A stretch of 28,308 nucleotides of DNA from Roseivirga sp. UBA6061. Lineage in GTDB: Bacteria; Bacteroidota; Bacteroidia; Cytophagales; Cyclobacteriaceae. The notes below the pieces were generated by a model. It ran no database searches, was not told the origin of the DNA, and worked only from the letters and a program-made list of their open reading frames with translations. Each line of letters begins with the position of its first letter. Positions within the stretch are counted from its first letter, which is position 1. Location: assembly GCA_002427745.1 (NCBI GenBank), contig DIYF01000065.1, forward strand, positions 10,158 through 38,465. The letters run 5' to 3'. The position numbers and the translations under genes are program-made. Shown one piece after another: positions 5,804 through 23,281 of the stretch.

Positions 5804-7015
5804 CTACTGAGTCATCCTGATCTGAATGATCACTGCTGAAATCACCGTGAGTATGCCTATACTGAGTATGGCTGTATCCATGGGAAAGTAATAGCTCAGT
5901 AAAATGGTAAGACCTGCACCAAAAGCATAACCCAGGTCACGCCAGAGACGGAAAACCCCTATTGACTGCGCCCTTTGGCTGGGATGTGTAAACCCTGCTA
6001 TAGCTGATAAAAAGGTGGGATATACAATGGCCGTGCCGACTCCCAGTATAACGGCCGGAATGATAAACTGAAGCTCTGTACCGGCCCAGAACATGGCCAT
6101 CAGTGCTATGCCCTGAGCGGCCATTCCCAGCACCAACATGTGTTTTTTATTATAGTGATCTGACAGCTTACCGGTTACAAGCTGCCCTATGCCCCAGACG
6201 GCCGGATATATGGATACTATCAGGGCTATAGCCTTTAAGTCAAAACCACGATTGGCCAGCACAATGGGTAAAGTGCCCCAGACCATACCATCATTCAGGT
6301 TATTGACAAAACCGGCCTGAGAAACGGAGCCCAGGTTGTTATCCCGCCAGGTAGTATCAATGAAAACATTTTTTAAGAACTTCTGATTATTCGTTTTGGC
6401 CTCAGCCGCTACATGATGCTGTGTGTCCTTTACAAATACAAGGCTCAACAAGAGACCTAAGGTCACAAAGCCAACTCCCTGATAGAAGGGATAAGGTCGC
6501 AACCCGTATTCCGCTGCGATCCAGCCTGTGGTAAAAGCCACCAGTGCGATGGAGAAATAACCAAAAGATTCATTGAGCCCCATGGCCAGGCCGCGGTGCT
6601 TCTCTCCCACCATATCTATTTTCATCACCACGGTGCTGGACCATGCCAGGCCCTGGTTAACCCCTAGCAGCACATTAGCCAGCACAACCCACTCCCAGGC
6701 CTGGGCATACATGAGTATGAAAGGAACAGGCACTGCAAAGAGCCACCCGATAACCAGGAGATTCTTTCTTCCCAACCTGTTGGCCAGCAGGCCCGCAAAA
6801 TAATTGACTATGGCTTTAACGAGGCCAAATACAATGATAAAAGAGAGTACGGCAGAAGTGGCCACAATCAGAAACTCCTCTTCGGCCAGCTTTGGTAAAA
6901 TGGTACGCTCCAGGCCTACCATTCCCCCCACAAATGCATTGATAAGAAGTAAAAGCGAAAACTGCTGCCAGTTCTCCTTAAAGCCAAGCCTGATGTCAGT
7001 TGCTGATTTACTCAT
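5804..7015 (-). CDS. MFS transporter
   Basis: This 403-residue protein has about 12 predicted membrane helices in two six-helix halves. The loop 2-3 signature of the major facilitator superfamily is present as GLLANRLGRKNLLV (about residues 75-88), with a weaker second copy GKLSDHYNKKHMLVLG in the second half. A charged central loop (KDTQHHVAAEAKTNNQK) separates the halves. The length is normal for a drug or metabolite proton antiporter. The substrate cannot be read from the sequence. It is a single gene, convergent with the 216-aa gene and divergent from the 196-aa gene. Confidence 0.9.
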   Translation of the reverse strand: MSKSATDIRLGFKENWQQFSLLLLINAFVGGMVGLERTILPKLAEEEFLIVATSAVLSFIIVFGLVKAIVNYFAGLLANRLGRKNLLVIGWLFAVPVPFILMYAQAWEWVVLANVLLGVNQGLAWSSTVVMKIDMVGEKHRGLAMGLNESFGYFSIALVAFTTGWIAAEYGLRPYPFYQGVGFVTLGLLLSLVFVKDTQHHVAAEAKTNNQKFLKNVFIDTTWRDNNLGSVSQAGFVNNLNDGMVWGTLPIVLANRGFDLKAIALIVSIYPAVWGIGQLVTGKLSDHYNKKHMLVLGMAAQGIALMAMFWAGTELQFIIPAVILGVGTAIVYPTFLSAIAGFTHPSQRAQSIGVFRLWRDLGYAFGAGLTILLSYYFPMDTAILSIGILTVISAVIIQIRMTQ

Positions 7016-10306: not shown

Positions 10307-10582
10307 TCAGGTAGAACAATGGTCTATAGCTTCCTGAATACCATTCCATATTTCTCCATCCGTTACAAAGAACGGCTTTTGCTGAACGGTATAAGTAACG
10401 GAGTCTTTCTGAGCGTTGTAATCGAAGCTGAAAACAAATTTTCCGATTTTGCTATCGGTTGTGGCCGTTCCCTGGTCGGCATTGGCTGGTGCATAAACCG
10501 TCCCGTGTTCCTTCTCACTGGTGGTCTTGAGGCACTGCCATACAGCGGTGGTGACACCGCCAAAGGTTCTTGATTTTCCCAT
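10307..10582 (-). CDS. Small protein, 91 aa, paralogue 2 of tandem pair
   Basis: Unknown family. It starts MGKSRTFGGVTTAVWQC and ends IWNGIQEAIDHCST. It has no signal peptide or membrane helix. Cys17 and Cys89 are shared with the adjacent paralogue, as are the stretches ADQGTATTD and SFDYNAQKDSV. It is 64 of 91 residues identical (70%) to the upstream copy by my count, without gaps. The divergence is concentrated in the middle (residues 44-51 and 65-68). It lies 36 bp downstream of its sister and is probably in the same operon. A binding or toxin-like role is possible but nothing in the sequence proves it. Confidence 0.75.
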   Translation of the reverse strand: MGKSRTFGGVTTAVWQCLKTTSEKEHGTVYAPANADQGTATTDSKIGKFVFSFDYNAQKDSVTYTVQQKPFFVTDGEIWNGIQEAIDHCST

Positions 10583-10618: not shown

Positions 10619-10894
10619 TCAGCTGGAGCAGTGATCGATTGTTTCCTGAATACCATTCCAGATCTGATTATCTGACACGATAAAAGGTTTTTTGATGATC
10701 TTATAAGACACAGAGTCTTTCTGAGCATTGTAGTCAAAGCTGAGCTCTACGGTGCCTACCACCGTGTCGGTTGTAGCGGTGCCCTGGTCTGCATCTGCCG
10801 GTACATATTTTGTTCCGTGTTCCTGTAAGCTGGTGGATTTCACACATTGCCATACAGCGGTGTTAACACCTCCGAATGTTCTTGATTTAGCCAT
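10619..10894 (-). CDS. Small protein, 91 aa, paralogue 1 of tandem pair
   Basis: This is the promoter-proximal member of the pair. It has the same length and architecture as its neighbour: MAKSRTFGGVNTAVWQC at the start, EHGTKY and ADQGTATTD in the first half, SFDYNAQKDSV in the middle, IWNGIQETIDHCSS at the end. It has no signal peptide. Strict conservation of both ends, including the two Cys, against variable central residues suggests one folded domain with a variable surface. It is transcribed away from the polysaccharide operon, from a 286-bp divergent intergenic region. Confidence 0.75.
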   Translation of the reverse strand: MAKSRTFGGVNTAVWQCVKSTSLQEHGTKYVPADADQGTATTDTVVGTVELSFDYNAQKDSVSYKIIKKPFIVSDNQIWNGIQETIDHCSS

Positions 10895-17992: not shown

Positions 17993-19363
17993 CTACTGAC
18001 AGTCTTTGCAATTGTGTGTAGCAAAATAGGTTAAAGCCTCAGTAGCAAACTTAACACCCAGCTTCTTGGCAAAAGCAGCAGCAGTGATCGTAAAGTCTTT
18101 CACACTGACATAAGTATTTAAGTCGATCAGAACATCAGCCGGCAGTTTCAGGCCCTGCTCACCGTAAACAGTGGTATGCTGCCCTCCGGCTTCCATCATA
18201 TAAGCCAGAAACTCTGAGAGTAGTTTTGGCAGGTGAAGCTGGTCAACCGGCTTGCCACATTTACCCACCATCACTCTGAATGCACTGGCAGACACAGGGT
18301 CTTTCAGAATCTCTTTGGCAATTCCCAGGGTAGTCGTAGAGCTAACGGCAATAGGCTTACCTTCGAAAATGGTATCTGTGCCGATACGTTTATAGTCATT
18401 ACCGCCTCTCTGCGCCTTGGCCCAGCAAATAAAACCATTGATGATCGGACCTACAGGAATACCCTTTCCGTCAAAGCAGTTAAAGGTAGAATAGAGAGTA
18501 GACAGGTGGTTCATATCCATAGCCTGTGGGTTGTCTGAGGGCCAGGCGTGAGGAACGATATCATATCGATTCACAATGGAATGAAAGTGACCATTGAATT
18601 TTTTAGTAGCATAATCGGCAAAAACACTGTTGCCCGGACTTGGTCCTGCTGAAGGATGAGCTGATACAACTACATTGGCCTTCGCGCTCTCTTCCTGATT
18701 CTCCAGCAGAGAAAGTGCCACCAAAGGAGAAAGTGCCCCTCCCAGACTATGGCCACAGGTGGCTATTTCTGCCTTTTCTGTGCCATTTAGTGTTTCTGAG
18801 AGAAAATCGATCAGCGTTCCTTTTGCCGGATCTACCATTCCCCAGAGCTTTTCAAGTCCATCGTAGCTACCATTGGAAATAGCACCGGCATTGGCAGGTT
18901 TTGCCAAAGTGACAAACTGAGGGGGCCAGGCCTGTACTTTCTTAACCTTCAGGTCTTCATCAAACCAGCCATATTCTGATACGGGGTTGGTACCGGCTGT
19001 GGCTACTACATACAAAGTACTCCCGTTAACCGGATCCTTTCCTTTGGCCACATACATCAGGTTGGTAGTGCTGAAACCCGATACTTCAATCTCAATAGTC
19101 TTGGCGTTTTTTCCATCGCCATCCTTTACCTTTTCTTTGAACGAGGTGTAGGCGTTGCTTGTAACAGGTCCCCATACTACGGAGAAGTCATTCCCCAGGA
19201 ATGTGGCGGTAGCACCTGACCCGCTAACGGCTGTCTTGATTCTTTGGGCATTGAGGTTCAGTTGCACTTCTGATGGTAACAGAAGCCCTGCGTTAATGTT
19301 CGCAAGATCTGAAAGTGCCCAGATCATTTGTTCTTTTTTGAATTCTGGTGTTGTGTCATTCAT
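17993..19363 (-). CDS. Class 3 lipase family protein
   Basis: This 456-residue alpha/beta hydrolase has the nucleophile elbow CGHSLGGALSP, with Ser206. A likely Asp268 lies in NRYDIVPHAWP and a likely His396 in GGQHTTVYGEQ, giving a complete candidate triad of the fungal (class 3) lipase type. An upstream strand ATAGTNPVSEYGWFDEDL and the oxyanion region fit the fold. No signal peptide is seen; the protein begins MNDTTPEFKKEQMIWALSDL. The C-terminus ends in a Cys pair (HNCKDCQ). It is transcribed from its own promoter region, which carries three 21-bp-spaced repeats, so the LytTR regulator encoded upstream probably controls it. Substrate is unknown. Confidence 0.88.
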   Translation of the reverse strand: MNDTTPEFKKEQMIWALSDLANINAGLLLPSEVQLNLNAQRIKTAVSGSGATATFLGNDFSVVWGPVTSNAYTSFKEKVKDGDGKNAKTIEIEVSGFSTTNLMYVAKGKDPVNGSTLYVVATAGTNPVSEYGWFDEDLKVKKVQAWPPQFVTLAKPANAGAISNGSYDGLEKLWGMVDPAKGTLIDFLSETLNGTEKAEIATCGHSLGGALSPLVALSLLENQEESAKANVVVSAHPSAGPSPGNSVFADYATKKFNGHFHSIVNRYDIVPHAWPSDNPQAMDMNHLSTLYSTFNCFDGKGIPVGPIINGFICWAKAQRGGNDYKRIGTDTIFEGKPIAVSSTTTLGIAKEILKDPVSASAFRVMVGKCGKPVDQLHLPKLLSEFLAYMMEAGGQHTTVYGEQGLKLPADVLIDLNTYVSVKDFTITAAAFAKKLGVKFATEALTYFATHNCKDCQ

Positions 19364-19433
19364 GTCTTTATTGTTTTAGATTTAAAAATTCGAATGGTTG
19401 AAGATTGGCTATTCAGAGCCATACAGGAAGCTT

Positions 19434-19487
19434 TCAGGACGAATGGCCCTAAAAACTGAGCGAATGAAACAGTATTCAGGACGAATG
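19434..19487 (-). promoter_or_regulatory. LytTR-type box array upstream of the lipase gene
   Basis: On the plus strand TCAGGACGAATG, ACTGAGCGAATG and TCAGGACGAATG begin at 19434, 19455 and 19476, exactly 21 bp apart. A degenerate fourth unit (TCAGAGCCATAC) begins at 19413 in the same phase. LytTR regulators bind such direct repeats about two helical turns apart. The reverse complement CATTCGTCCTGA resembles the CCGTTCGTC core bound by AlgR. The array ends 71 bp upstream of the lipase start codon. Confidence 0.75.
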
Positions 19488-19508
19488 ATTTTCTACCTTC
19501 TGAGCAAT

Positions 19509-19533
19509 AAAAAAGGCCGCAAAAAGCGGCCTT
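19509..19533 (-). terminator. Rho-independent terminator of the 155-aa gene
   Basis: A perfect 8-bp stem (AAGGCCGC/GCGGCCTT, A5 loop on the plus strand) is followed on the minus strand by a T6 run. It lies 22 bp after the stop of the 155-aa gene and separates it from the lipase gene, which therefore needs its own promoter. Confidence 0.9.
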
Positions 19534-19554
19534 CCCTGTGCTTGACATGAATGC

Positions 19555-20022
19555 TCAGGCACTTAGAATCTCGAGAATAAGCTCGATGATTTCTTTGTAT
19601 TCATTATCCTGTTCCAGGATTTCTGCTGCTGTATACAAGGTACCGTAAGCACTGCCATCCGAATCAGTATAGTTCTGGTTTTCGAAAGTATCAATGCGTA
19701 CAGTGGCACCACTGCCTGACCCCAGCACGTGCAGAGAGGCGGCACCATTGGCCGGAGTTTCACACTCCTTAAAGGGAGCAAATGCATTGCAAAGAATGTA
19801 TTGGTTATCATCTCCTTCAAACTGAATGACCATGGTCCACCAGTCCAGTGTGAAAGATTCCTGCTGTGCTTCAGCGTTAAAAGAGGCTGCTGTCAGAGGC
19901 AGGTTTTCTACTGTCATTACCTTTTCCAGTGAATCAGGGTAAACGGTACTGGCTGAATGACCTACGGTAGCGACTGTGATAAGCTTGTCGCAATTGTTGA
20001 CTACTTGGGTATTACATTGCAT
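19555..20022 (-). CDS. Hypothetical acidic protein, 155 aa
   Basis: Not recognised. It starts MQCNTQVVNNCDKLITVATVG with two early Cys (C3, C11) and has two more in the middle (ILCNAF and KECETP). There is no signal peptide. The central LTAASFNAEAQQESFTLDWWTMVIQF and the QYILCNAFAPF segments look like beta strands. The C-terminus is a strongly acidic helix (EILEQDNEYKEIIELILEILSA). It is strongly acidic overall. It is a single transcription unit between the LytTR regulator and a strong terminator. Its upstream region holds both a 21-bp repeat array and a long inverted repeat, so it is a likely direct target of the regulator. Confidence 0.75.
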   Translation of the reverse strand: MQCNTQVVNNCDKLITVATVGHSASTVYPDSLEKVMTVENLPLTAASFNAEAQQESFTLDWWTMVIQFEGDDNQYILCNAFAPFKECETPANGAASLHVLGSGSGATVRIDTFENQNYTDSDGSAYGTLYTAAEILEQDNEYKEIIELILEILSA

Positions 20023-20034
20023 AACTTAAAGAAT

Positions 20035-20099
20035 TAAGAGTGAAAATTTGTTCAGATCACCGGCTTGGTTGCTGATGATGTATCAAATATTCACTCTTA
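20035..20099 (-). repeat. 16-bp inverted repeat in the leader of the 155-aa gene
   Basis: TAAGAGTGAAAATTTG (20035-20050) and CAAATATTCACTCTTA (20084-20099) pair over 15 of 16 positions around a 33-nt spacer. The proximal arm ends 12 bp before the ATG at 20022. On the minus strand the distal arm contains AATATTTG (20091-20084), one base off the TAnnTTTG -7 consensus. The element may therefore be a leader stem-loop, an operator pair, or a promoter-bearing repeat. Confidence 0.75.
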
Positions 20100-20118
20100 G
20101 ACAGGCGAGAGAAAGGAC

Positions 20119-20172
20119 TCAGGACGAATGACCCGGATTACTGAGCGGATGGAAAGTTCTTGCGTACGAACA
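20119..20172 (-). promoter_or_regulatory. LytTR-type box array upstream of the 155-aa gene
   Basis: On the plus strand TCAGGACGAATG, ACTGAGCGGATG and TGCGTACGAACA begin at 20119, 20140 and 20161, exactly 21 bp apart. The first two units, with their order and spacing, align without gaps to the array before the lipase gene. If the AATATTTG at 20091-20084 is the -7 element, the nearest box lies near -47, a usual activator position. Confidence 0.75.
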
Positions 20173-20183
20173 GAATAGGAGCA

Positions 20184-20921
20184 TCAGAGCGTCCTGAACC
20201 GATTGAAAACAGCTTCTCTGAAGTTTTTACTCACCGGTATCTCATTTTCTTCGATAAACACCCGGTTGCCCTCAAAGCCGGTGATGTGCATCAGGTTCAG
20301 CAGGTATGACCGGTGACTCTGGATAAAGTATGGGTAGGTCAGGCGATTGATAACCGTTTTCAGAGTAAGGCTCAATAAATAACTCTCAGCTCTGGTTTTG
20401 ATCAGCGTATAATTGCGCTGTGCTTCGGCAAAGAGGATATCTTCCACTCTTACCTTGTCATACCTGAATTTCTTTTTGATAAAGAAACTGTCATTAATCA
20501 GGTAGGAATCGGCATCTTCCTCATTTACCTCAGGCGCTTCCTTCAGTGCAAAGTTCGATACCGCCAGGTCGATGGCAATTTGTATTTCACGATCGCGGAA
20601 GGGCTTGATCAGGTAAGCCGATGGGCCGGTGCTCTGGGCTTCTTTTACAATTTCCGGTTCGGCATGAGAGGTCAGGAAAATAAAAGGCCTCTCTCCTGTT
20701 TCCTGCAGTTCTCTGGCAATATCAATACCGGAGAGTTCCCCGTCCAGCTCAATATCGATCAGCATCAGATCAAAATCCGGACGTTCCGATAAATGAGATT
20801 TTGCATCGGCATAGGTATGAAATGTACCGGCTATCTCATATCCCAGATGCCTGAGTCTGTTGCCCAGATCGCGGGCAACCAGCACCTCATCCTCTAATAT
20901 AACTACCTTAACCTTCGACAT
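20184..20921 (-). CDS. LytTR-family response regulator
   Basis: This 245-residue protein has an N-terminal receiver (about 4-122) with E10/D11, phospho-acceptor D56 (LMLIDIEL), T84 (FLTSHA) and K106 (LIKPF), all conserved. A LytTR DNA-binding domain follows (about 140-245), with VEDILFAEAQRNYTLIKT, the SHRSYLLNLMHITGFEGN signature and IPVSKNFREAVFNRF. It is a transcription factor that binds tandem direct repeats. Its start overlaps the end of the histidine kinase gene by 14 bp, so it is co-translated with its presumed kinase. The two 21-bp repeat arrays downstream are its likely targets. Confidence 0.95.
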   Translation of the reverse strand: MSKVKVVILEDEVLVARDLGNRLRHLGYEIAGTFHTYADAKSHLSERPDFDLMLIDIELDGELSGIDIARELQETGERPFIFLTSHAEPEIVKEAQSTGPSAYLIKPFRDREIQIAIDLAVSNFALKEAPEVNEEDADSYLINDSFFIKKKFRYDKVRVEDILFAEAQRNYTLIKTRAESYLLSLTLKTVINRLTYPYFIQSHRSYLLNLMHITGFEGNRVFIEENEIPVSKNFREAVFNRFRTL

Positions 20922-22866
20922 GCGCGCTTAGCGGAATATAAGGAAATACGATGGTGAATTCAGCACCGGATTGATTATCGGTAGTCATTTTTCCTTTAAG
21001 CTGCTTCATCAGGTCACCTATTAACTCCAGACCGAAAGATGATGCCTTTACTTCTCCTGTATGAGGAAGTCCGGGGCCATTATCTCCTACCGTCAATGTG
21101 AGTTTCTGAGAGGCCTTATCCATATTGAGATAAACCCTCAATGCCGGCCTGGCAACGGCCTGGAAAGCATGCTTGAAAGCATTGGTAATCAGTTCGTTGA
21201 TGATGATCCCGAGAGGAATAGCATACTTTACGTCCAAAGGACTGTCATCAATATCCAGGTCCAGATCTACCGCTTCCGGCTCAAAATCATACAGGTAGAT
21301 GGCATTTTCAATCAGGTGCACCACATAATCCTTCATCTCAAGAGCGGTATCATTCTCTCCCTGATATAGCTCACGATGGATCATAGACATGGCTTCCACA
21401 CGTGTTTGTCCTGCCTTAATCGCTTCTGCTGCTGTATGGCTCTCCGCCTCGTAATACTGTAAGTTCAAGAGGGATGAGACCACCTGAAAGTTATTCTTTA
21501 CCCTGTGATGCAGTTCCCTTAGCAACAGGGCCTTTTCCTGCTCTCTTTTCTCTATCAGCTCCTTTTTAGACTGTAGAAGTTTGTTGGATTTCTTTTTACG
21601 TAAGAGGGACCAATAGATAAAGCCAGCCACCAACAGTAGAAAAACCAGTCCTGCAAGAAGTTGTTTCTGCTCAATGCTGGCCTCTGTCAGTTCCAGCGTC
21701 TTTTCCGCAATCTCCCGGTCTTTCTTTTCTGTATCAAACTTTACCTGCAGCTCGGCCAGTTGAGCGTTTTTCTCAGTGTTGGTTATTTCGTAATCAATGC
21801 TGTCAGAGAGTTTGTAATACTCAAAAGACCGCTTGTAATCTCCCAGAGCTTTATAGCTGTCTGAAAGGTTGTAGTAAAGAGATGAGAGGAGTTCCGGAGA
21901 GCCTACTTCTTTTGCTAAAGCAACCCCCTCTTCGGCATAGTTTACTGATTTACGATAAGTTTTACGTTCAAAAGCTAAAGCGGTCAGGTTATTCAAAAGT
22001 AAGGCCTGACTATAGGCGTTTCCGGATTCCTGTCTGATTTTCAAGGCTTTTTGATAGAACAACTCGGCCGAATCGAGAATACTTGAACGGTAAAATAGAT
22101 TACCTAGGTTAGTCAGTAAACCTGACTGAAACCTGTCATGATTTGGCCCAACAGCATATCCAAGTGCTAGAAGGTAGTTTGACTTCGCCAGTTCATCATT
22201 GTCCATGGCAGCCTGTAAGTTACCTAATACTTGATAGGAGCGAATAATGCCTATCGAATCCAAATTAGATAATCTTATACTAAGAGCTCTGTTATAGTAT
22301 TCATCAGCCAGCTTGTAGTCTTGGTCCATTCTGTAATAATTACCCAGTCCATCAAGTACTTTGGTCAATCCGGTAGTTTTTTCTGAATTATCTAAGAGAC
22401 TAAGGGCCGCCAAAAGATTATCCAAAGTGGCCACTTTGTCACCCATTCTCCTTGTGACCTGGCTAATGACAAAATGAGCATCTGCCAGTTTGATGGTATC
22501 TTCATCGCGTTTTCTATAGTCCAGGTTGAACTGATAATGTCTTTTTGCCTTAACTAAGTCCCCATATTTTAAATAAACATAGCCGAGCCTGCGATGTGAA
22601 GTTGCGACACCGTCTATGTATCCTAAGCTATTCGCTATCTCAAGTGCCTGAAGAGCGAACTGGATAGACTTGCTCGAATCAGAATCTACATACTTTCTAG
22701 ACTCTTTGTTTAAACTGTCCACAGTAGCCTTCGTACCCTGATAATGGACAAACGTCACTAAAGAACTGTCTACTGGTTTCCGTTCAAAAGAGTGTAACTG
22801 GTAATTAAAAAAAAGAATAATCGGGAAACTCAACAAAGCAAGAAACCTATTCCTTTCCAGTCCCAT
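20908..22866 (-). CDS. TPR sensor histidine kinase (HisKA_2 type)
   Basis: This 652-residue protein has an N-terminal hydrophobic segment (about 8-23), then tetratricopeptide repeats (about 50-385, with recurring NLGNLFYRS, LADEYYNRALSIR and AEELFYQKALKIR-like units). A coiled coil and a membrane helix (about 403-421) follow. The dimerisation and phosphotransfer motif is LLLRELHHRVKNNFQ with His453/454. The ATPase domain has the N box NELITNAFKHAF (about 556-567) and the G1 box DNGPGLP. This TPR-TM-HisKA_2 layout with an adjacent LytTR regulator is common in Bacteroidota. The TPR region is probably periplasmic and senses a protein or envelope signal. The gene overlaps the 144-aa gene by 20 bp and the regulator by 14 bp. 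Confidence 0.93.
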   Translation of the reverse strand: MGLERNRFLALLSFPIILFFNYQLHSFERKPVDSSLVTFVHYQGTKATVDSLNKESRKYVDSDSSKSIQFALQALEIANSLGYIDGVATSHRRLGYVYLKYGDLVKAKRHYQFNLDYRKRDEDTIKLADAHFVISQVTRRMGDKVATLDNLLAALSLLDNSEKTTGLTKVLDGLGNYYRMDQDYKLADEYYNRALSIRLSNLDSIGIIRSYQVLGNLQAAMDNDELAKSNYLLALGYAVGPNHDRFQSGLLTNLGNLFYRSSILDSAELFYQKALKIRQESGNAYSQALLLNNLTALAFERKTYRKSVNYAEEGVALAKEVGSPELLSSLYYNLSDSYKALGDYKRSFEYYKLSDSIDYEITNTEKNAQLAELQVKFDTEKKDREIAEKTLELTEASIEQKQLLAGLVFLLLVAGFIYWSLLRKKKSNKLLQSKKELIEKREQEKALLLRELHHRVKNNFQVVSSLLNLQYYEAESHTAAEAIKAGQTRVEAMSMIHRELYQGENDTALEMKDYVVHLIENAIYLYDFEPEAVDLDLDIDDSPLDVKYAIPLGIIINELITNAFKHAFQAVARPALRVYLNMDKASQKLTLTVGDNGPGLPHTGEVKASSFGLELIGDLMKQLKGKMTTDNQSGAEFTIVFPYIPLSAHVEG

Positions 22867-23281
22867 CGTCTGGATCTACTTCAAGCGGGTCCTCAAAAAT
22901 CACCTTTGGCTTCGGATCAGTATCAGTGTCATTTACATCAAATTCCAGGACCAGTACCTCTGGTACCTCTTTTGTGATTTCAAACTCATAGCCCAGCCAG
23001 CGCCCCTCAGTATGTTGCCCTTCTTCTGTAACATGGGAGGTAGTAACCAATACAGTCTGAATTCCATTTTCAGTAGCGCTCAATCCATTATTGAGATCGG
23101 GATATCGAATATCAGTAACTACTTCATCAGGTCTCAAATAGATAAAAAACTCCACCTTGTAAGTTCTGGGAAGTATATCAGCATCCTGTTCGTTAAGAAG
23201 AAAGGCTTCACCCACAATATCATGGTATTGACCATGGATTTGAGAAAAGCTTGCCTGAATAAGATTGTTGGGGTCTGCCAT
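22847..23281 (-). CDS. Hypothetical 144-aa protein, first gene of the sensor operon
   Basis: Not recognised. It has no signal peptide (MADPNNLIQASFSQIHGQYHD) and looks beta-rich (TYKVEFFIYLRPDEVVTDIRY, GIQTVLVTTSHVTEE, LGYEFEITKEVPEVLVLEF). The last 25 residues form an acidic Pro-rich tail, DPKPKVIFEDPLEVDPDDG plus TGKE, absent from the rest of the window except in the broken lipoprotein at 23500. The tail's coding sequence overlaps the kinase start by 20 bp, so translation is coupled. Position and coupling suggest it works with the kinase, for example as a ligand, accessory sensor or effector whose production is matched to it. Confidence 0.8.
   Translation of the reverse strand: MADPNNLIQASFSQIHGQYHDIVGEAFLLNEQDADILPRTYKVEFFIYLRPDEVVTDIRYPDLNNGLSATENGIQTVLVTTSHVTEEGQHTEGRWLGYEFEITKEVPEVLVLEFDVNDTDTDPKPKVIFEDPLEVDPDDGTGKE

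Follow-up and report, generated by a model that had tools for sequence, protein, structure and literature searches.

Two three-box arrays with a 21-bp period as candidate operators of an adjacent LytTR response regulator in Roseivirga sp. UBA6061

The stretch of DNA analysed here, hereafter the window, comprises 28,308 nt of Roseivirga sp. UBA6061 (assembly GCA_002427745.1, contig DIYF01000065.1, positions 10,158 to 38,465 of the forward strand) and carries two arrays, each consisting of three 12-bp boxes that recur with a strict 21-bp period in the order A-B-A on the minus (coding) strand. Array 1 (A-B-A) is located 5' of a class 3 lipase gene. Array 2 (A'-B-A, the first box being a degenerate unit A) is located 5' of a gene for a 155-aa protein. 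Comparison of the sequences suggests, with a probability that we put at roughly 0.85, that the two arrays are dedicated operators of the LytTR response regulator encoded beside them.

Box arrays and their conservation in a related genome

On the plus strand TCAGGACGAATG is found at 19434, 19476 and 20119, ACTGAGCGAATG at 19455 and ACTGAGCGGATG at 20140, in constant 21-bp steps. Read on the minus strand, unit A is CATTCGTCCTGA and unit B is CATTCGCTCAGT, with box cores TTCGTnC for A and GCTCAGT for B. Both arrays read CATTCG... on this strand, which is the strand of both target genes (Table 1). Between the two arrays 30 of 36 box letters are identical, compared with 8 of 18 spacer letters. A preliminary description of this DNA had the coordinates, order and 21-bp period right, but its statement that one unit is shared throughout fails at A' (20161-20172), which has just 7 of 12 letters in common with unit A. 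The TTCGTnC core, common to array 1 and to the array of the related locus described below, is retained in A'. The regulator gene, thought earlier to start 12 bp beyond array 2, instead starts at 20921 and ends 11 bp past A'; array 2 therefore faces the 155-aa gene. Direct repeats of about 9 bp placed about two helical turns apart 5' of the target, as expected of a LytTR operator, are present at both target genes. The 21-bp period and the three boxes agree with the LytTR-site geometry originally proposed, and the neighbour is a receiver-LytTR regulator with a TPR-HisKA_2 kinase.

Across 19 genomes of the genus, the source genome included, the best match to the regulator is in genome G611 at about 67-68% identity, the next best being 39%. 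The G611 locus (L186) preserves the order of the 144-aa gene, kinase, regulator and lipase, as well as that of genes beyond, including those for a GNVR-domain protein and a glycosyltransferase, and is without the 155-aa gene. Identities to the window are 35% for the 144-aa protein, 51% for the kinase, 67% for the regulator and 36% for the lipase. Within the regulator, 81 of 99 residues are identical in the DNA-binding half and 74 of 121 in the receiver. In L186 regulator and lipase are separated by 141 bp, and this gap contains CATTCGTCCGTC-N9-TACCTGCTCAGT-N9-TGTTCGTCCGGT, an ungapped A-B-A in the same 21-bp register, and an array begins 11 bp past the regulator stop both in G611 and, as array 2, in the source genome. 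Over the three arrays, invariant columns number 22 of 36 in the boxes versus 4 of 18 in the spacers (Fisher p 0.0096). On the box columns common to the window's two arrays the L186 gap scores 22/30, a value reached by none of 5,000 dinucleotide shuffles of that gap (best 20). The L186 array is nearer to array 1 (36/54) than to array 2 (28/54), as would be expected if the array travels with the lipase. In that case a cassette made up of the 155-aa gene and array 2 may have been gained or lost between regulator and lipase. The predicted conservation of the 21-bp register upstream of orthologous genes was thus found at the only orthologous locus available for comparison (1/1), that of G611.

Protein searches gave further instances of the association. 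In a Roseivirga metagenome-assembled genome, adjacent locus tags (Roseis2KO_33650 and Roseis2KO_33660) belong to the 155-aa protein and the regulator, and R. pacifica has homologues of both. The source genome (8.2 Mb) and G611 (8.6 Mb) are large compared with the 4-5 Mb of most same-genus genomes examined.

The arrays appear to be the only ones of their kind in the source genome. The pair pattern CATTCGnnCWGW-N9-CATTCGnnCWGW, scanned across all 8.18 Mb with at most 3 mismatches, gave 7 matches; the 3 with 0 or 1 mismatch all fall inside the two arrays, the remaining 4 carry 3 mismatches. Reversing the pattern as a control gave 5 matches. Single 12-mer boxes are unremarkable (30 matches with no more than 2 mismatches, versus 21.5 expected). 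The skeleton TTCGTnC-N17-GCTCAGT-N11-TTCGTnC was then searched with at most 2 mismatches in 380 genomes of the family. It was derived from the three arrays, so that their exactness is by construction and the informative part is that nothing else comes near: the 23 matches comprise 3 exact ones, located at the two window arrays and at the array of G611, and 20 with 2 mismatches, with nothing at 1 mismatch. These 20 were set aside, not being above the reversed control of about 30. The genome scan for 21-bp pairs suggested at the outset accordingly returned no further array in the source genome, and the regulon appears, as judged from these patterns, to be limited to the lipase and 155-aa gene promoters.

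Known LytTR operators and 21-bp repeats beside other LytTR genes

AgrA, ComE and other LytTR response regulators of Firmicutes bind 9-bp direct repeats with a 21-bp period, in pairs and not triplets. Compared with these sites, the arrays belong to another phylum, have different box letters and are triplets. RcoM, a further point of comparison, is a one-component CO sensor. The canonical LytTR site is a pair of 9-bp direct repeats 10-13 bp apart, and LytTR sites generally are direct repeats separated by about two turns of the helix, occurring as pairs or, in RcoM1 and CoxC, as triplets (PMC11347149). RcoM1 of Paraburkholderia xenovorans resembles the present case in having three direct repeats at about two helical turns 5' of the target promoter; its operator is a triplet of TTCNNGCA, is bound by the LytTR domain and serves an activator (PMC11347149). 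Only TTC of that consensus is matched here, and here the core of the middle box differs from that of the outer two. CoxC of Afipia carboxidovorans likewise has three direct repeats, spaced 18-21 bp and all required, but is unlike our system in being a membrane MHYT regulator and a repressor with repeats overlapping the -35 element (PMC11347149). The arrays therefore show triplet spacing of the RcoM/CoxC type without either box consensus, TTCNNGCA or TTNNNGCN, the outer boxes having TTCGTnC and the middle one GCTCAGT. YpdB of Escherichia coli is, like the regulator here, a two-component LytTR protein. It acts at yhjX on the direct repeat GGCATTTCAT with a 21-bp period in the oligonucleotide used, and has a strong and a weak site in sequential, cooperative use (PMC4847170). 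Its two boxes are alike and not A-B-A, and their letters are other than those found here. The arrays match RcoM and CoxC in geometry and number but not in letters, and the presumed regulator here is two-component. The heterotypic A-B-A layout is the most novel trait of an otherwise known kind of triplet operator. No mapped LytTR operator from Bacteroidota stood out among the open-access papers listed, most subscription papers being outside this search.

The source genome contains 106 LytTR matches. We analyzed gaps of at least 50 bp beside 105 of these, the window's own locus being excluded (183 gaps in 104 stretches), for direct repeats at lags 13-60, using 12-mers scoring at least 10 or at least 14 bits and leaving lag 42 out of the comparison. 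At the 10-bit threshold, lag 21 was found in 32 of the 183 gaps versus a mean of 12.3 at other lags (standard deviation 3.9, highest 24 at lag 20). With the 14-bit threshold the count was 10 gaps versus a mean of 1.8 (highest 5). The equivalent figures in 166 control gaps from 20 LytTR-free stretches were 17 versus 10.2 (standard deviation 3.3, highest 17) at 10 bits and 2 versus 1.5 at 14 bits. Some of the strong lag-21 matches are plain short tandem repeats, such as the 7-bp repeat of locus L033, and are included in the counts. The letters of the repeats vary from locus to locus. Repeats at 21 bp thus characterize the surroundings of LytTR genes in the source genome, and their excess supports the geometry of the arrays independently of the locus in the window.

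Comparable repeats were seen at individual loci. Three related HisKA_2-LytTR systems of the genus, L195 (G611), L196 and L201 (source genome), have 21-bp TTCGGAACA or TTCAGAACA repeats directly 3' of the regulator, which probably represent another LytTR operator type. At L060, ACAAAAGACATT-N9-ACAAAAGAAATT is located 3' of the regulator. This locus, from another family, carries ACAAAA(G/A) repeats at lags 21 and 42 (6766-6880) directly 3' of its LytTR regulator, a layout as in the window but in different letters. In the genus labelled g54, whose regulators are about 38-44% identical to that of the window, the gap 5' of the kinase operon contains a 21-bp repeat, for example CCATTTACTAAA-N9-CCATTCACTCAA in L053. 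When five such loci were scored separately, lag 21 came first in L053 and L061, shared first place in L054 and L056, and fell outside the top four in L058. The g54 repeats (CATTCACTCAAT) had been considered as kin of unit B (10/12 by eye); this was rejected, a box model derived from the window's arrays and that of L186 scoring 1.3-4.3 in the 5 gaps and up to 11.6 in 95 control gaps. The 21-bp geometry recurs near more distant regulators, and the letters do not carry over. Between the kinase-regulator operon and a divergent gene lies a conserved block that includes a 21-bp repeat, most evident in L053 (9335-9510) and L061 (3457-3690); the block is also found in L054 (9285-9529), L056 (9603-9847) and L058 (5143-5382). 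The divergent gene of L053 and L054 has a weak, sub-threshold match to Stv-adhesin.

Genes around the arrays and their homologues

Both Pfam scores of the regulator, for Response_reg and LytTR, exceed their cut-offs. Its receiver has acidic residues at 10-12, Asp56, Thr84 and Lys106, which we take to be the acidic pair, the phosphoacceptor and the Thr and Lys of a receiver domain. The kinase frame overlaps that of the regulator, and we infer that this adjacent HisKA_2 kinase is the cognate partner. No Pfam family was matched at E 0.001 by either the 155-aa or the 144-aa protein, and the window held no Rfam family at the gathering score.

Table 1. Features of the window discussed in the text (positions within the window)
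Feature	Positions	Strand	Remarks
Class 3 lipase, 456 aa, proposed target 1	17993..19363	-	Pfam Lipase_3 E 1e-15
Weak -7-like element, AATCTTC	19400..19406	-	27 nt past array 1
Array 1 unit A, lipase-proximal, CATTCGTCCTGA	19434..19445	-	ends 70 nt 5' of lipase ATG
Array 1 unit B, middle, CATTCGCTCAGT	19455..19466	-	
Array 1 unit A, distal, CATTCGTCCTGA	19476..19487	-	
Terminator-like hairpin, AAGGCCGC-TTTTT-GCGGCCTT plus T run	19509..19533	-	read by eye
155-aa protein, proposed target 2	19555..20022	-	predicted beta-sandwich resembling PUD-1/PUD-2
Weak -7-like element, AATATTTG	20084..20091	-	27 nt past array 2
Array 2 unit A, proximal to 155-aa gene, CATTCGTCCTGA	20119..20130	-	ends 96 nt 5' of ATG
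Array 2 unit B, CATCCGCTCAGT	20140..20151	-	
Array 2 degenerate unit A (A'), distal, TGTTCGTACGCA	20161..20172	-	7/12 to unit A
Response regulator, receiver + LytTR, 245 aa	20184..20921	-	Response_reg E 1.6e-16 (60.9 bits), LytTR E 1.6e-15 (57.5 bits)
Sensor kinase, TPR + HisKA_2 + HATPase, 652 aa	20908..22866	-	HisKA_2 E 3.8e-23
144-aa protein, frame overlapping kinase start	22847..23281	-	L186 homologue in same place, 35% identical

The hairpin is located between the 155-aa gene and array 1, and because of it the lipase and 155-aa genes look like separate transcription units. It is missing from the output of a terminator scan, probably since G-T pairing consumes the T run; sigma-70 and terminator scans suit this phylum poorly and were left unused. 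Elsewhere in the window, tandem 91-aa paralogues are encoded at 10307-10582 and 10619-10894 (GKSRTFGGV and AKSRTFGGV), the first with a sub-threshold DUF1923 match (E 0.01).

In a search for relatives of the 155-aa gene, 390 genomes of the order gave only the source genome and one weak match (G196), and 390 genomes of the family only the source genome and one weak match (G598). A peptide pattern matched 8 and 62 stretches of genome contigs, none of which encodes a relative, and none was found on the plasmids searched. At E <=1e-20 the lipase was found in 2 of 241 genomes of the order, the source genome and G127 (44% identical, partial length), a sample that does not contain G611. The regulator was found at E <=1e-45 in 10 of 241 genomes of the order and in 5 of 18 genomes in the family of G163.

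Proposed regulation and alternative explanations

If the arrays are indeed operators of the adjacent regulator, the TPR-HisKA_2 kinase would phosphorylate it at Asp56. The regulator would then occupy the three boxes side by side on one helix face, cooperatively and with one LytTR domain per box. RNA polymerase would be recruited to a promoter just 3' of the array, and the lipase and the 155-aa protein would be switched on as two separate units. The weak -7-like elements of Table 1 recur at the identical 27-nt offset past the L186 array, where the last box lies 76 nt from the ATG. The combination of CTTY and AATMTTY at fixed offsets past all three arrays was equalled by 499 of 20,000 letter shuffles and is kept as weak.

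Several observations weigh against the assignment. The comparative DNA consists of one orthologous locus only, and the promoter-like elements downstream of the arrays are weakly supported. In the lag analysis, lag 21 shares the top count (17) among the control gaps at the 10-bit threshold, and the neighbouring lags 20 (24 of 183 gaps) and 22 (21 of 183) show some increase beside LytTR genes too. In a ranking over 26 loci of related regulators, only 6 had lag 21 in first place in a gap close to the regulator, and two of these 6 gaps were about 50 bp long; upstream gaps at L054 and L061, split by called frames, did not enter this ranking. Lastly, the same box model fails to lift the g54 21-bp repeats above controls.

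The sign of regulation is a question within the proposed assignment. Activation seems likelier than repression, given that the last box is 70 nt (lipase) and 96 nt (155-aa gene) away from the ATG and that the weak promoter-like elements are 3' of the boxes. That the regulator instead represses both genes until signalling relieves the repression has a precedent in CoxC, through which a LytTR triplet operator is able to repress; yet the CoxC operator overlaps the -35 element, unlike the boxes here, and most LytTR-type regulators bind 5' of -35 and activate (PMC11347149). We consider repression unlikely, if still a serious candidate.

A transcription factor encoded elsewhere, for example another LytTR regulator, could use the arrays, with the two-component system merely co-located. 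The 106 LytTR matches make for many candidate binders, and for this reason the position of the neighbour is by itself weak evidence. Nor was an array seen 5' of the 144-aa gene, with which the regulator's own operon starts: the 481 bp of window sequence there hold 4 single one-mismatch cores, and the 80 bp 5' of the operon in L186 hold none. However, in G611 the array has stayed beside the regulator and lipase genes, and the rest of the source genome contains nothing close to it; both findings fit a dedicated neighbour better, and we regard a foreign factor as improbable. The same upstream sequences do not support autoregulation through these boxes. The interpretation given in the preliminary description, a circuit of the regulator, its kinase and two targets, is otherwise supported.

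Lastly, the arrays could be a promoter region copied when the 155-aa gene arrived, their likeness being due to descent and only in part to function; the 30 of 36 shared box letters would fit, as would the single array of G611, which lies 11 bp past the regulator stop like array 2 in a genome without the 155-aa gene, but the spacers agree so much less than the boxes, between two arrays and among three, that selection seems to have acted on the boxes even in the event of a copied origin, which is itself compatible with dedicated operators; as a rival account this is very improbable.

Taking the arrays as operators of the adjacent regulator, a more tentative proposal, which we hold as rather less than an even bet, is that three LytTR protomers sit at two-turn steps on the A-B-A layout, with the regulator reading two box sequences, perhaps as a graded or ordered switch. 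On this proposal, 21-bp repeats with regulator-specific letters would serve the hundred-odd LytTR regulators of Bacteroidota genomes like this one as a general code. On the main assignment, the kinase-regulator pair would be tied to a lipase gene and to the gene for a small protein whose predicted fold is PUD-like. With a conserved and uniquely placed operator beside its presumed regulator, the recognition code of a large set of LytTR proteins becomes directly testable.
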